Below the pieces are notes generated by a model, which saw only the letters and a program-made list of their open reading frames with translations, had not been told where the DNA came from and ran no database searches. From positions 434,001 to 498,000 of the forward strand of contig NZ_CP016771.1 of NCBI RefSeq assembly GCF_002288005.1: 64,000 bases of DNA, written 5' to 3'. The stretch comes from Candidatus Nanopelagicus hibericus. GTDB taxonomy: Bacteria > Actinomycetota > Actinomycetes > Nanopelagicales > Nanopelagicaceae. A program made the translations under genes and the position numbers. Below are positions 3,546-60,192 of this stretch, piece by piece (the first letter of the stretch is position 1; each line of letters begins with the position of its first letter).

Positions 3546-5045
3546 TTAGGCAACAAGGCGGGTGCGGCGAGGGGAGGCGTATTTCTTTTCAACTTCAGAC
3601 AACTCCTCAGACACTTTAGCTTTGATGCTCTCCTCAGTTTTTAGGATTGCAGTTAAGGAGGAAATTGTAGCCTTTAATTCTTTGGCTTCATTTTCTAGTT
3701 CGATTTTGCTCATCTTGGTCAATCTGCGCAGCGGCATATCCAATATATATGTTGCTTGTTCATCACTTAACTTAAATGTTTTGATTAAACCAGTTTTTGC
3801 AACAGTTGCATCCTCACTTGCTCTGATCAATTTAATTACCTTATCAATATCAACAATTGCTTTGAGCAGGCCATCTACTAGATTTAATCGTGCCTGCGCT
3901 TTAGCTTTACGGAAGATAGATCTGCGCTTGACCACCTCAATTCGGTGATCAATAAAGACTTGCAGCAGATCCTTTAAGCCCAAAGTCAACGGCTTTCCAT
4001 TTACTAGCGCCACTGCGTTGATGGAAAAGGCATCTTCCATCGGAGTAAGGCGATAGAGATTTTCTAGAACTTCAGCTGGTTCGTAACCATTTTTGATCTC
4101 AACAACTACTTTGGTGCCAGATTGACCATCAGATAGATCAACAATATCTGAGATACCTTGGATTTTTTTTGCCTTAACTAAGTCGGCAATCTTTTCAACA
4201 ATTTTTTCAGGTCCAATGTTGTATGGCATCTCTGTTATTACTAATCCTTGCTTGCGGGCTGAGACCTTTTCAATAACCGCAGTTGCCCGTACCTTAAAGG
4301 AGCCACGACCACTGGCGTACGCCTCAGCAATACCTTCGGTGGCGGTTAAGTAACCACCTGTTGGAAAGTCTGGCGCTGGCACAAACTTCATTAATTGTTT
4401 TAATGTGGCTTTTGGATTTTCCATTAAATGCTTGGCAGCTGCAATTACTTCACCTAAATTGTGAGGAGCCATATTTGTGGCCATACCAACAGCGATGCCA
4501 GTTGCACCATTTACTAATAAATTAGGAAATGCTGCAGGCAATACCTGGGGCTCCATAATTTGACCATCATAATTTGCGCCAAAATTAACGGTGTCCTCAT
4601 CGGATTCATCCACCATCAACATCGCCGATAGTGCAAGCCGTGATTCGGTGTAGCGCATGGCCGCTGGGCCAGAATCTAATGAACCAAAATTTCCATGACC
4701 ATCGATTAGTGGCAGACGCATTGAAAATGATTGCGCCATACGAACCATCGCGTCATATATCGCACCATCACCATGTGGGTGCAGCTTTCCCATTACATCT
4801 CCAACAACTCGAGCAGATTTCACATGACCTTTATCAGGCCTGAGTCCCATGGCATTCATTTGATGCAAGATGCGGCGTTGTACTGGCTTTAAACCATCGC
4901 GGGCGTCGGGCAAAGCGCGGGAGTAAATTACCGAGTAGGCGTACTCTAAAAATGATTCAGACATTTCAGAGGCAACATCAATATCAATGATTCGGCCGGG
5001 ATTCACACCAGCTTTAGGTGCTACTACTTTTGGTGTTTTTGCCAT
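3546..5045 (-). CDS. parC: DNA topoisomerase IV subunit A lacking the C-terminal domain
   Basis: Breakage-reunion subunit partnering ParE. Contains the winged-helix/tower core: [20 protein letters not shown], the [12 protein letters not shown] motif, and the catalytic tyrosine in AAMRYTE (about residue 132), then the long coiled coil. The protein stops at RRTRLVA at about 499 residues, where family members (about 750-820 residues in other actinobacteria) continue into the beta-pinwheel DNA-wrapping domain. The ABC-F start follows 6 bases later, so there is no remnant of the missing part. I chose ATG 5045 because the residues before it lack family similarity; an upstream in-frame ATG at 5096 would add 17 residues. 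Confidence 0.85.
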
Positions 5046-5120
5046 ACGCCGTATCTTGCCAATATTTCTCCATTTTCTTGTTCGCGACAAGCCCATTACT
5101 TAGTAAATTCTTGAGATAGG

Positions 5121-5126
5121 TATCCT
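5121..5126 (+). promoter_or_regulatory. -10 element TATCCT of leaderless promoter
   Basis: TATCCT followed by 6 bases and then the ATG of the alkaline phosphatase-family gene at 5133. The spacing places the transcription start on the start codon, and no ribosome binding site is present. Confidence 0.5.
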
Positions 5127-5132
5127 TGCGCT

Positions 5133-6239
5133 ATGAATACTGGGAAATCAATTGATCACTTTGGTTTATCCCACCTAATTAACTCAGTATTTTCAACATT
5201 AAATCTTGATGGTACAACTGATTATTTGTCCCTTGGCCAAGGACAGATGCGAGAGTGTTTGGTATTAATAGATGGCATGGGACAGGATGCAATTAATAAG
5301 TTTTCAGAACAATTTCCAATATTTGAAGATATTAAACAGGTAAAAACTATCTATACCGATTTTCCATCAACTACCGCTACGAGTATCTCAACGCTCGGCA
5401 CCGGTGTGCTGCCTGGTATGCATGGCATGCTGGGCTACACAGTCAGGGTTCCTAGAAGTGATAATCGGTTACTTAATGCCCTCAAGTGGGATGAGCGGGT
5501 AGATCCAGTTATTTGGCAAAAAGTACCAACTATGTTTGAGCGGGCAGCGATTGCTGGAATTGCTGTTACTCATGTTGCTGCCAAAAGATATGAGGGCAGT
5601 GGATTTACGCAAGCGGCATTACGTGGCGCCAAGTATGTTGGCGCAAATAGTATTCAAGAGATGGTCACCGCGGTTCATCTTGCTCTGCAGCCACAACCAT
5701 CTTTTGTCTATACCTATTTAAACAACTTAGATTCTGCCGGACATAGCGATGGGGTTGGATCTGATAAGTGGCTTACCGCATTTGAATATGTCGCTGAATT
5801 TATCGCCAAGCTAAAGCAATCAGCTCCTGCCGGAACACGGTTTTGGATTACCTCAGATCATGGAATGGTAAATAGCACCGAGCAAATAATTTTAGGACAG
5901 GATAACCAGCTGTTAGATAATGTGACTTTAATTGGCGGTGAACCCAGGGCACGGCATATTTATATTAAGCCAGGTGCTGTGGCAGAAACCATTACCCAAT
6001 GGCAGGAGTTTTTTGCTCAGAAGGTGAAGATATTGAGTAGGCAAGATGCAATATCAAGTGGATTATTTGGACCGGTAGTCACCGAGGATTCATCCGATCG
6101 CATGGGTGATTTAATTGCGATCGCTAACAAAGATCTAATTTTGGTTGATCCTGCGCGAATCAAGGAGGAGACATCTATGGTTGGACACCATGGGGGAGTA
6201 ACAGATACTGAGGTTGCGATTCCGCTGTTACTTACTTAG
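5133..6239 (+). CDS. Alkaline phosphatase family protein / nucleotide pyrophosphatase-phosphodiesterase
   Basis: Metal-dependent phospho-/phosphodiesterase of the alkaline phosphatase superfamily (type I phosphodiesterase/NPP fold). Metal and nucleophile motifs in order: LIDGMGQDA (first Asp), the FPSTTATS nucleophile threonine, DSAGHSDG, SDHGM, and MVGHHGG near the C-terminus. No signal peptide or membrane segment, so probably cytosolic. The neighbour sepH is convergent and the two stops share the bases TTAG (6236-6239); the association of this phosphodiesterase with sepH is common in actinobacteria. Start ATG lies 6 bases after a TATCCT hexamer. Natural substrate is unknown. Confidence 0.82.
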   Translation: MNTGKSIDHFGLSHLINSVFSTLNLDGTTDYLSLGQGQMRECLVLIDGMGQDAINKFSEQFPIFEDIKQVKTIYTDFPSTTATSISTLGTGVLPGMHGMLGYTVRVPRSDNRLLNALKWDERVDPVIWQKVPTMFERAAIAGIAVTHVAAKRYEGSGFTQAALRGAKYVGANSIQEMVTAVHLALQPQPSFVYTYLNNLDSAGHSDGVGSDKWLTAFEYVAEFIAKLKQSAPAGTRFWITSDHGMVNSTEQIILGQDNQLLDNVTLIGGEPRARHIYIKPGAVAETITQWQEFFAQKVKILSRQDAISSGLFGPVVTEDSSDRMGDLIAIANKDLILVDPARIKEETSMVGHHGGVTDTEVAIPLLLT

Positions 6240-55882: not shown

Positions 55883-56971
55883 ATGAACAATTCACCACTA
55901 GCAGCGCGACATACGCAGGCATCTGCAAAAATGGCAGATTTTGGCGGCTGGTTGATGCCAATTGAGTATGCAGCAACTGGCGTAATTGCGGAGTATCAAG
56001 CGGTTCGAAATAATGTTGGATTATTTGATGTCTCGCACCTGGGAAAGATCTCAGTGATCGGTGTTGGCGCAGTTGAATATTTGAACCAAATGGTCAGTAA
56101 TGATTTAGCAAAAATTCAAGCAGGTCAGGCTCAGTACACACTGCTTTGTAATGAGGATGGTGGAGTAGTCGATGATCTCATTGTTTATCGAAACTCAGAT
56201 GCTGATCTTTTCTTGATTCCTAACGCTGCAAATACAAGTTCAGTCTTTGAGATTCTAAAGGCGCAGGCACCTGCTGCGATTGAGGTAAAGAATTTGCATC
56301 GGCAGTATGGGGTAATTGCGTTACAAGGGCCAAACTCGGTAGCGGCGCTAAAGGAGATTGGTATCGAAAGCAATATGGATTACATGCAGTTTGTAAATAC
56401 TTCAATTGATAATTGCCCAGTTATTTTATGTAGAACTGGATACACCGGAGAGTTAGGCTTTGAAATTATTCCAGCTTGGCAGGATGCGCAAAAGGTTTGG
56501 GATAAATTGATCGCAGTTGTTGAAAAGTTAAATGGTTGTGCATGTGGATTAGGCGCAAGAGATGTTCTGCGTACTGAGATGGGATATCCGCTACACGGCC
56601 ATGAACTCTCACTACAGATTTCACCGGTGCAGGCGGGTGCTAGCTGGGCGGTGGGTTGGAGCAAACCAACATTTAGGGGCAAAAGAGTTCTAACTGAGCA
56701 AAAGGAACAGGGAAGTAAATTGAAATTAAAGGCGATCTTGGCGAAGGATCGTGGCATCCCGCGTAAAGAGATGCAGGTGAAGGATCAATCTGGAAAGGTA
56801 ATTGGTGTAGTTACAAGTGGAACCTTCTCGCCCGCACTAAAGAAGGGAATTGGCCTGGCGTTAATTAACTCCGAGGTCAGTAAGGGCGATCAAGTCCTAA
56901 TCGATATTCGTGGCGCAGATTCACCCTTTGTGGTGGTCTCACTACCGTTTGTGGAATCTAAGGTTCGTTAA
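55883..56971 (+). CDS. gcvT: Glycine cleavage system aminomethyltransferase (T protein)
   Basis: Transfers the aminomethyl carbon from GcvH to tetrahydrofolate, releasing ammonia. Motifs: NSPLAARHTQASAKMADFGGWLMPIEY, GLFDVSHLGKISVIG, GVVDDLIVYR, GYTGELGFEIIPAW, and GLGARDVLRTEMGYPLHGHEL. 362 residues. GcvH and GcvP genes are not adjacent. Lpd from the neighbouring operon serves the same complex. Ends 7 bases from the convergent small membrane protein gene. Confidence 0.95.
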   Translation: MNNSPLAARHTQASAKMADFGGWLMPIEYAATGVIAEYQAVRNNVGLFDVSHLGKISVIGVGAVEYLNQMVSNDLAKIQAGQAQYTLLCNEDGGVVDDLIVYRNSDADLFLIPNAANTSSVFEILKAQAPAAIEVKNLHRQYGVIALQGPNSVAALKEIGIESNMDYMQFVNTSIDNCPVILCRTGYTGELGFEIIPAWQDAQKVWDKLIAVVEKLNGCACGLGARDVLRTEMGYPLHGHELSLQISPVQAGASWAVGWSKPTFRGKRVLTEQKEQGSKLKLKAILAKDRGIPRKEMQVKDQSGKVIGVVTSGTFSPALKKGIGLALINSEVSKGDQVLIDIRGADSPFVVVSLPFVESKVR

Positions 56972-56978
56972 CTAAAGC

Positions 56979-57149
56979 TTAGTAATGTCCACCCCAGTAG
57001 CGCCAGGCATAAGCTGCAATTTCAGTTCCCACGAAAAGAATTGAAAAATGAAGTGCAACTGCCAGGAATTTAGAGAGCAGCGATTTAACTTTCGAGGTAG
57101 TACTTACCTCAACAATAATCGGTGCGTTCGCAACTGTGTTAGTGAACAT
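56979..57149 (-). CDS. Small single-pass membrane protein in the B12-riboswitch operon
   Basis: 56-residue protein. Translated start MFTNTVANAPIIVEVSTTSK, then one hydrophobic helix (FLAVALHFSILFVGTEIAAYAW) and a short tail ending RYWGGHY with a terminal His. The gene starts 8 bases after the DUF4430 stop with a GGGAAT ribosome binding site, so both are on one transcript controlled by the cobalamin riboswitch. It resembles small cobalt-transport subunits (CbtB) in size and setting only; it lacks their His-rich C-terminal motif. No function can be assigned. Confidence 0.7.
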   Translation of the reverse strand: MFTNTVANAPIIVEVSTTSKVKSLLSKFLAVALHFSILFVGTEIAAYAWRYWGGHY

Positions 57150-57157
57150 AAATTCCC

Positions 57158-57685
57158 CTACTCCGGAAACTTAACATTACCATTATCAGCAAAGACAAAG
57201 GCAAGTGAATCACCAGGCTTTAATGCCAGATCTGCAACGCCAACTTGAGCCCACGCCCACTTCGCATTTAAATCAGCTGGATTTGGTACCGGCTGCTTAC
57301 GTTTTTCCAGCACCGCCCAGTAGGCAAACTCAGCTGGCATATCCTTACAGGTTTCAATGTAATCCTCATGGCCCTTAATGCCGATTGGCTCATTTGGCTT
57401 AGGTAAATTATTAATTCGACAAACTATATTGTTGCCGTATTTATCAGTTCCCTCTAATTTGAAGTTGGCGCTGTTCATTAAATCCAGCGCAGTTACCGCA
57501 CCATCTGCAGTAAGGCACTTCTCATAAGGCGCACTTTGTGGATCTAAAACTCCGTAATCAATAAGTACTGTGACGCAGTTTTTGTTTGATTGCGCTGAGT
57601 AGAAGGAGATGCCCCCAATAATCAGGGCTGCTACCAGTGTTGCCGGAAGAAACTTCTTCCCATTATTTACGATGTTACTTAACAT
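57158..57685 (-). CDS. DUF4430 (transcobalamin-like) membrane-anchored exported protein
   Basis: 175 residues. Positions 10-30 form a signal peptide or membrane anchor (FLPATLVAALIIGGISFYSA); the rest is a DUF4430 domain, the fold of the beta domain of animal transcobalamin and intrinsic factor. Domain features: CVTVLIDYGVLD, DGAVTALDLMNSANFKLE, YWAVLEKRKQ, and WAWAQVGVADLALKPGDSLAFVF. Four cysteines (37, 57, 89, 113) could form disulfides. Directly downstream of a cobalamin riboswitch, so probably a B12- or cobamide-binding surface protein for uptake. That role is inference. Confidence 0.8.
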   Translation of the reverse strand: MLSNIVNNGKKFLPATLVAALIIGGISFYSAQSNKNCVTVLIDYGVLDPQSAPYEKCLTADGAVTALDLMNSANFKLEGTDKYGNNIVCRINNLPKPNEPIGIKGHEDYIETCKDMPAEFAYWAVLEKRKQPVPNPADLNAKWAWAQVGVADLALKPGDSLAFVFADNGNVKFPE

Positions 57686-59052: not shown

Positions 59053-60192
59053 ATGCTTTTAATTAAGCGAAGTAAATGGCTAACCCTTTCGTTGGTAATT
59101 GTATTAACTTCACTCTCTGTTCCTACTGCGGCCGCTGATCCATCAGATCAATTTCCATCTGGCCCATACAACGCAACATTAATTTCAGACAAAATTCTTT
59201 ATCCAAGTCTTTTTGGAGTATCAGCCGGACTTCCAGTTGCGGATGTATCGGGTGTGCAATTGAGCAACGGCACTATCAGGGCGTATGTATTTGCCCAAAA
59301 TCAGGGAATTGTGATTGCAGAATCAACAGATGGAAAAATCTTTACCAAAGTGGGAAATGCATTTGGTGGTGATAAAGGTCAAGGTATGCCTCGGGTCGTC
59401 AAATTAAGTGATGGCAAATTCAGAATGTATAACATGTCTTCTGGCGGGATTTCGTGTTCAATTTCATCAGATGGTTTGAACTTTACCGTTGAGAAAGCGG
59501 ATTGTATTTCAAGCTCTCCATATGCTGGAGCTTCAAATGGGCTAACTGGTGCTGGCATTGTTAAATTGGCAAATGGAACTTATCGAGCCTATTTCTCAGA
59601 TATGGTTAAAGCTGGAACTGGTCCTGACCCACATCAGGTTTACTCCGCTACATCTACCGATGGCTTAACTTGGAGTGCAGATTCGGGCATACGAGTCGGC
59701 CCTGGTACAACTTCAATTACTCGAAGCGCCGAGCATCCAGCCGCAGTTGTGCATGCCGATGGTTCAGTTACTTTATTTTATTTTGATAATGAAGCGCGCC
59801 CAGGAAAAGATTCTTCTGGCAGGCAAAATATGGCAATGGGTCAAATGGGACTTTGGTATTCAACCAGTACTGACGGTGGCCTAACTTTTTCAACTGAAAA
59901 TAAAATAAATTTTCCAGCGCCGTTATCTAATAGTTTTGGAAACGATCCTGATGTTTTTCTTGATAAAGATGGATCAATGATTTTATGGGCTGGCGGATTT
60001 GAAAATTCATTGGGTGGGTATATCGGAGCGGTTAAGTTAACTAAAGGCTCTGCTAGTTCGGCCGCAAGCACAGCTCCAAAACCTGCGCCTAAGAATTCAA
60101 AAAATGTAAAATTCACCTGTATAAAAGGTAAGCAGAAAGTCACTAAAACCGGGGTACCCGTTTGCCCAACTGGTTGGAAATTACTTAAGTAA
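59053..60192 (+). CDS. Secreted BNR/sialidase-like beta-propeller protein with C-terminal two-cysteine tag
   Basis: 379 residues. Signal peptide at 1-27 (LTLSLVIVLTSLSVPTAAA). The body has repeated Asp-box (BNR) motifs of the type S-x-D-G-x-x-W/F (AESTDGKIF, SSDGLNFTVE, STDGLTWSAD, STDGGLTFSTE), typical of sialidase/glycosidase-like six-bladed propellers. After a Ser/Ala/Pro/Lys linker, the end reads KFTCIKGKQKVTKTGVPVCPTGWKLLK, a two-cysteine basic motif. Catalytic residues for a glycosidase are not obvious. Likely cell-surface or extracellular; role unknown. Confidence 0.78.
   Translation: MLLIKRSKWLTLSLVIVLTSLSVPTAAADPSDQFPSGPYNATLISDKILYPSLFGVSAGLPVADVSGVQLSNGTIRAYVFAQNQGIVIAESTDGKIFTKVGNAFGGDKGQGMPRVVKLSDGKFRMYNMSSGGISCSISSDGLNFTVEKADCISSSPYAGASNGLTGAGIVKLANGTYRAYFSDMVKAGTGPDPHQVYSATSTDGLTWSADSGIRVGPGTTSITRSAEHPAAVVHADGSVTLFYFDNEARPGKDSSGRQNMAMGQMGLWYSTSTDGGLTFSTENKINFPAPLSNSFGNDPDVFLDKDGSMILWAGGFENSLGGYIGAVKLTKGSASSAASTAPKPAPKNSKNVKFTCIKGKQKVTKTGVPVCPTGWKLLK

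Follow-up and report, generated by a model that had tools for sequence, protein, structure and literature searches.

The acI actinobacteria belong to the most numerous bacteria of fresh water. Among the small proteins connected with B12 regulation is CbtB, which has one helix and a terminal histidine. Bacterial transcobalamin-like proteins encoded beside CbiO/CbiQ genes are described as likely B12 scavengers in the part of Burroughs et al. 2007 (PMC1796856) that treats them, and a section of the work on BtuM (PMC6072759) has that protein holding cobalt by a cysteine. Passages in two further papers (PMC5301498, PMC5574706) report that acI strains do not make B12.

Here we describe a pair of genes in a window of 64,000 nucleotides, the whole stretch of DNA analysed, from Candidatus Nanopelagicus hibericus. 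On the minus strand of the window lie an AdoCbl (coenzyme B12) riboswitch aptamer (RF01482, 57738..57884, 61.1 bits in Rfam), directly downstream of it a gene for a protein of 175 amino acids (57158..57685), which we call the partner, and then a gene of 171 nt for a membrane protein of 56 amino acids (56979..57149, ATG start, TAA stop). A sequence-only reading of the same DNA had already proposed a frame of 56 codons between gcvT and the partner gene, with its own ribosome-binding site and a start 8 bases after the partner stop, and these coordinates hold: the start is 8 bases past the partner stop, the sequence AGGGG (57155..57159, minus strand), read as the ribosome-binding site, stands 5 bases 5' of the ATG and overlaps the stop codon of the partner gene, and 7 bases separate the stop of the small gene from that of the convergent gcvT (55883-56971). 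The riboswitch was absent from that description of the locus. It is the sole RNA in the whole window at the Rfam threshold and the only AdoCbl riboswitch found in the genome, and it lies 5' of the pair in 13 of the 14 genomes that have the pair, the contig of the remaining one (G003) ending within the partner gene. Promoter-like patterns occur at background level only, and each of the terminator-like sites (3, against 1.3 expected) lies on the plus strand. The partner was found in exactly the 14 genus genomes holding the small gene; outside the genus the same search of relatives gave one homologue (G062), and a further weak match (G017, E 6e-4) falls in a frame that looks like CbiN by its neighbours. 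The two genes look co-transcribed, and this apparent co-transcription, the identical phyletic pattern that the co-occurrence check brought out and the riboswitch all favour the earlier suggestion that the small gene works with the partner in B12 or cobalt chemistry.

Some other features were seen along the way. One relative (G001) has a second AdoCbl riboswitch (L068:6659-6799, minus strand) that precedes genes reading as nrdI-nrdE-nrdF, and the same genome also has NrdJ. Another AdoCbl riboswitch is upstream of a gene reading as MetE (G026, locus L022), and a further one stands before a secreted protein with no assigned family that is cut by the contig end (G024, locus L018). In the window itself, positions 59053-60192 (plus strand) encode a secreted-looking protein of 379 amino acids, whose match to the BNR repeat is weak and falls short of the curated cut-off.

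The small frame is a conserved gene and more than a chance occurrence. It is encoded in 14 of the 25 genomes of the genus, which are also the only 14 among 100 relatives, and in all 14 it has its full length, no internal stop and the same 8-bp spacing to the partner gene, so that the conservation asked about by the sequence-only reading is found and the premature stops are not. When 296 family genomes were searched with a profile, the same 14 came back at E <= 2.4e-26, the next-best match being at E 0.007. The pooled dN/dS is 0.30 over five independent pairs and rises to 0.95 and 1.09 on shifting the frame; the partner gene gives 0.09 in the four of those pairs that allow comparison. At the position of the ribosome-binding site the 12 members listed have AGGAG, AGGGG or AGGGA. 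Since 6 of the window's 55 ATG frames with 50-100 codons also follow a purine-rich site, this site alone proves little. No family was found for the small protein in Pfam (E <= 1) or NCBIfam (E <= 10), and no relative of it in the viral contigs searched. The earlier remark that the frame is too short for default gene callers is doubtful, since the default minimum length of common gene callers is below 171 nt.

The partner has a hydrophobic anchor at about residues 12-32 followed by a beta domain (residues 34-175). It matches none of the families in Pfam and NCBIfam, and phmmer against PDB chains gave no match. An AlphaFold2 model built from 45 sequences, in which the partner, like the small protein, was modelled separately as a single chain, reaches a mean pLDDT of more than 90 for most blocks of residues 40-175. 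In Foldseek the best match of this model is the human transcobalamin beta domain (E 7.7e-4), and VIA-align gives transcobalamin a Z of 10.7, the first unrelated fold having a Z of 5.7. The best fifteen VIA-align rows (Z 9.5-10.7) are all transcobalamin, haptocorrin, intrinsic factor or the bacterial 3u7z, with an rmsd of 2.6-3.4 over 94-99 residues in eleven of them and of 7-9 in four. By its predicted fold, then, the partner is a beta domain of the transcobalamin/intrinsic factor type (beta-grasp), and it would be expected to bind cobalamin. The label DUF4430, attached to the partner by the sequence-only reading, is right in kind, as the predicted fold agrees with it, though the Pfam matches of 45 partner homologues do not include DUF4430 and the partner itself has no match. 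The idea that the small protein anchors the partner loses its ground, since the partner has an N-terminal anchor of its own and such anchoring seems unnecessary. A lipobox-like N-terminus is present at 66 of 69 partner loci of the Microbacteriaceae/Micrococcaceae type and at 0 of 11 freshwater ones, which have a hydrophobic stretch instead.

There is a B12 need in these bacteria, and the known importers were not found in the genome searched. That genome (99.9% complete, one contig) has a MetH, of which 931 aa of frame were recovered (59% identity to that of G062, which has 1210 aa), and a class II ribonucleotide reductase NrdJ, the single match of its family at 609 bits; MetE gave no match. 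DNA synthesis and methionine synthesis in the clade with the pair thus appear to rest on B12 enzymes. In searches with HMMs or single proteins the same genome gave no match to EcfT (PF02361), to a cobalamin EcfS (with the EcfS of a cassette as query) or to FecCD (PF01032), which is present in 1 of the 25 genomes of the genus. ABC_membrane_2, the family of permeases to which we take Rv1819c to belong, was not found in this genome or in any other of the 17 of the 25 genus genomes covered, and the SCO2321 alpha toroid (NF053823), sought as the part that would complete a bacterial transcobalamin, was found in 0 of 25. A second complete genome (G013) presents the same picture of B12 enzymes and importers. 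A divergent EcfT could be missed, because PF02361 scores the EcfT subfamily of this genus weakly (E 3e-6 to 3e-5 in G010, G018 and G022), and weak partial EcfT-like matches were seen in G001 and G005; the EcfS search is sensitive, with E around 1e-83 in the same genus.

The need for B12 and the presence of a known or putative uptake system go together in the genus. Evidence of MetH or NrdJ was seen in 13 of the 17 genomes covered by the searches for these two enzymes, although that in G005 is a partial frame only and could also be NrdE, and one of three systems was found in 12 of the 13: the pair in 9, ECF in 2 (G010, G015) and FecCD in 1 (G014, its B12 specificity presumed). The thirteenth (G016, 76% complete) has MetH and NrdJ and none of the three. 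Three genomes (G004, G007, G012) have an NrdE-like reductase only, without MetH, and none of them has any system, and one in which neither enzyme was seen (G011, 63%) was left out of the count. The association gives a Fisher p of 0.007, in a set of related species that are not independent.

Between gcvT and an aldo/keto reductase (AKR) gene lies a slot that holds the pair here and importer cassettes in relatives of the family. The ECF version, in the order AdoCbl riboswitch, SCO2322 protein, EcfT, EcfA-A and EcfS, is found in L062, L065, L072 and L075 and, within the same genus, in L067 and L069; L070, L071 and L076 are ECF-cassette loci cut by contig ends, and L064 has an additional SCO2321 gene. 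The other version, with a riboswitch followed by BtuF, BtuC and BtuD, is found in L063 and L073. The names SCO2322, SCO2321, EcfT, EcfA and S-component were checked on examples, and the Btu names were read from the sequences. In the AKR tree the genus falls into two clades, one with ECF (support 98/93) and one with the pair (96/92), and the outgroups are mainly ECF, so that the pair would most simply have replaced importer genes in a single event in one clade of B12-requiring bacteria. A gcvT tree (window 55883-56971; L069, L241, L242), which has long branches and was left out of the main argument, differs from the AKR tree in placing the pair clade apart from those genomes of the genus that have ECF; gcvT may have been brought in together with the cassette, or it may evolve fast.

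Homologues of the partner outside the freshwater group were also collected (69 loci of 80 kept from 108), in Microbacterium, Agromyces, Arthrobacter, Aquiluna and other hosts of the Microbacteriaceae/Micrococcaceae set. There an ECF module directly follows the partner homologue at 68 of the 69 loci, mostly as one fused T-A-A-S frame, the exception being an Aquiluna locus (L176). EcfS was seen at 65 of the 69 and a convergent MetH at 52, and 0 of the 11 of these loci given to Rfam have a riboswitch at threshold. Two records titled as Bifidobacterium breve MAGs (L135, L141) hold sequence of the Nanopelagicaceae type, and their titles look wrong.

The small protein is 53-56 amino acids long across its members and is modelled as one helix (residues 16-52, mean pLDDT 74). 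From its N-terminus it consists of a basic stretch, the helix with His34, the motif G41xxxA45, W49-R50-x-W52 and a C-terminal GGHY. The sequence-only reading had picked out the histidine inside the membrane helix and a C-terminal RYWGGHY; His34 is conserved in 13 of 14 members and the C-terminal W-R-x-W in all 14. The helix is only modestly hydrophobic (mean of the best 19-residue stretch 1.33-2.17 among members). With 3-4 basic residues on the N-terminal side of the hydrophobic stretch and 1-2 on the C-terminal side, an N-inside, C-outside topology is the likelier one. Conserved positions recur with a period near the helical angle (permutation p 0.0002-0.0008), and K27, H34, L38, G41, A45, W49 and W52, which include the GxxxA motif, share one face of the helix. 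Only His (8 of the 14 members) and Cys (the other 6) occur at the last conserved position, and a hand count on the AKR tree, covering 12 of the 14, needs at least four changes between the two; such a restriction would fit a ligand to metal or cobalt. The small protein and the partner show no homology to each other (hhalign probability 0.4%). Descent from a fragment of an ECF gene was considered and rejected, an HMM scan of 100 loci having given nothing better than E 1.3 outside the family itself.

The reading we favour, and think somewhat more probable than its negation, is that the small protein is the dedicated second, membrane subunit of a stripped-down B12 acquisition operon, in the order AdoCbl riboswitch, protein with the transcobalamin beta domain, 56-aa single-helix protein. 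At low AdoCbl the riboswitch would permit expression of the operon, to judge from the known riboswitch family. The partner, tethered by its own N-terminal helix, would then hold cobalamin on the outside of the membrane, and the helix of the small protein may pack by its conserved face on another copy of itself, on the anchor of the partner or on a permease. The tail of the small protein on the outside, W-R-[YFL]-W-[GA]-[GA]-[His/Cys], might offer a cobalt ligand or a lid for the corrin. Taking the place of the alpha-toroid or ECF partners of the relatives, this tail would allow cobalamin to move from the beta domain into the membrane, and the final crossing would be made either by oligomers of the small-protein helix or by a separate permease. 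In the boldest form, the partner and an oligomer of the small protein would together be a complete, ATP-independent importer that takes cobalamin base-off with the terminal His/Cys as cobalt ligand. We regard this as unlikely; if true, the two-protein importer would be the smallest B12 uptake system known to us.

The pair might also do no more than capture cobalamin and dock on a transporter whose gene lies at another place in the genome, such as a solitary S-component or some other carrier, which we give slightly less than an even chance and which overlaps with the favoured reading wherever the small protein is not the channel. One helix in a protein of 56 aa is very small for the transport of a cofactor as large as B12. 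Solitary carriers of the BioY and PnuC types are already used by acI genomes, according to a passage in PMC5301498, and the relevant section of PMC6072759 has a solitary BtuM importing B12 without an ECF module. Against such a transporter stand the lack of any EcfT, cobalamin EcfS, FecCD or ABC_membrane_2 match in the genome and the finding of just one riboswitch there.

A different origin might be sought in the first gene of the ECF cassette. In hhalign the small protein and SCO2322 align over 11 columns that end in WRYWG on both sides, with a probability of 85.6% and a score of 35.9, above all of 300 + 300 column shuffles (best 23.7), and the shared stretch is the tail of the one and the mature N-terminus of the other. 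Among the weak matches of the small protein outside the genus (E 0.007-0.06), an N-terminus of the SCO2322 type was present at 5 of the 9 loci inspected. The likeness may reflect a corrin-contact motif common to both proteins, a remnant or coincidence. Were the small frame a remnant or echo of a displaced SCO2322, the signal helix and the first YRYWG strand would have been kept. This we hold to be quite improbable: the alignment spans just those 11 columns, the NCBIfam model of SCO2322 (NF040672) does not match the small protein, and a six-frame HMM scan of the cassette loci L061-L080 and of L131-L210 gave nothing better than E 1.3 outside the family. The motif, moreover, is near the start of the soluble domain in SCO2322 and at the end of the modelled helix in the small protein, whose own start, own ribosome-binding site, low dN/dS and conserved His34 argue for a present function. 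As for SCO2322 itself, its local comparison with the partner domain reaches 91.6% over 99 columns in permuted order, 55.7% over 43 in native order and less than 0.4% in cross-half controls, and SCO2322 proteins resemble a transcobalamin beta domain in circularly permuted form (L062:11111-11863, minus strand; L278:1072-1704, minus strand; alignment A5). In L064 a gene for a SCO2321 alpha/alpha toroid lies beside SCO2322 and ECF (4886-5989 and 4263-4886, both minus strand), possibly a bacterial transcobalamin split in two.

The sequence-only reading had compared the small protein with CbtB, and a single helix, a terminal His and a place near B12 regulation do recall a CbtB-like subunit of a cobalt-ion transporter. 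Pfam gives no CbtB match at E <= 1, so membership of that family is not supported. The neighbour has a predicted cobalamin-type binding fold, and the organisms for which Cbt transporters are predicted are essentially B12 makers, as put in an excerpt of PMC2667541, whereas these bacteria are reported auxotrophs; we consider a cobalt-ion transporter very improbable. That the frame is spurious or non-coding, for which the frequency of purine-rich sites before other ATG frames of the window might be cited, is in practice already refuted by its conservation, spacing and codon pattern across 14 genomes, and can be dismissed.

The favoured reading, a B12 acquisition operon with a small membrane subunit, matters because the riboswitch points to the partner and the small gene for B12 acquisition where known importers were not found. 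If it is right, the question how streamlined bacteria of fresh water come by their B12 has a defined answer, a bacterial transcobalamin domain can occur without its ECF module, and an essential pathway gains a family of small proteins that has no Pfam or NCBIfam model. Literature searches, with most subscription journals outside their range, found no paper naming SCO2322 and none on a Nanopelagicus vitamin B12 transporter. By title and abstract nothing on such a pair was found under DUF4430 and cobalamin, and for small single-helix proteins with cobalamin and a riboswitch nothing on this subject came up, the part of PMC4991794 retrieved there having no link to it.

Compared with CbtB, the small protein has no sequence match and is accompanied by a partner with a predicted cobalamin-type binding fold. 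With the SCO2322 family (NF040672), the first gene of the replaced cassette, it has in common the 11 columns ending in WRYWG; SCO2322 is a secreted protein of about 180-250 aa, apparently a permuted transcobalamin beta domain, and its model does not match the small protein. The partner shares the fold of the transcobalamin-like clade of the SLBB superfamily (PMC1796856), and its homologues adjoin ECF genes of the CbiQ/CbiO type, whereas the genomes with the pair have no detected ECF genes or alpha toroid and have a helix protein of 53-56 aa instead. The riboswitch-controlled ECF cobalamin modules of acI, as set out in part of Kang et al. 2017 (PMC5301498), belong to the same order and, in relatives, share the AdoCbl riboswitch and the chromosomal slot; EcfT and a cobalamin EcfS were not found with the pair, which consists of two small genes rather than four to five. 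The solitary BtuM of Thiobacillus denitrificans, as far as the pertinent section of PMC6072759 describes it, combines ECF-independent uptake with a Cys ligand to cobalt and so invites comparison with the terminal Cys/His of the small protein. BtuM is a multi-helix S-component, in contrast to a single modelled helix together with a separate binding domain, and the likeness would be one of working only.
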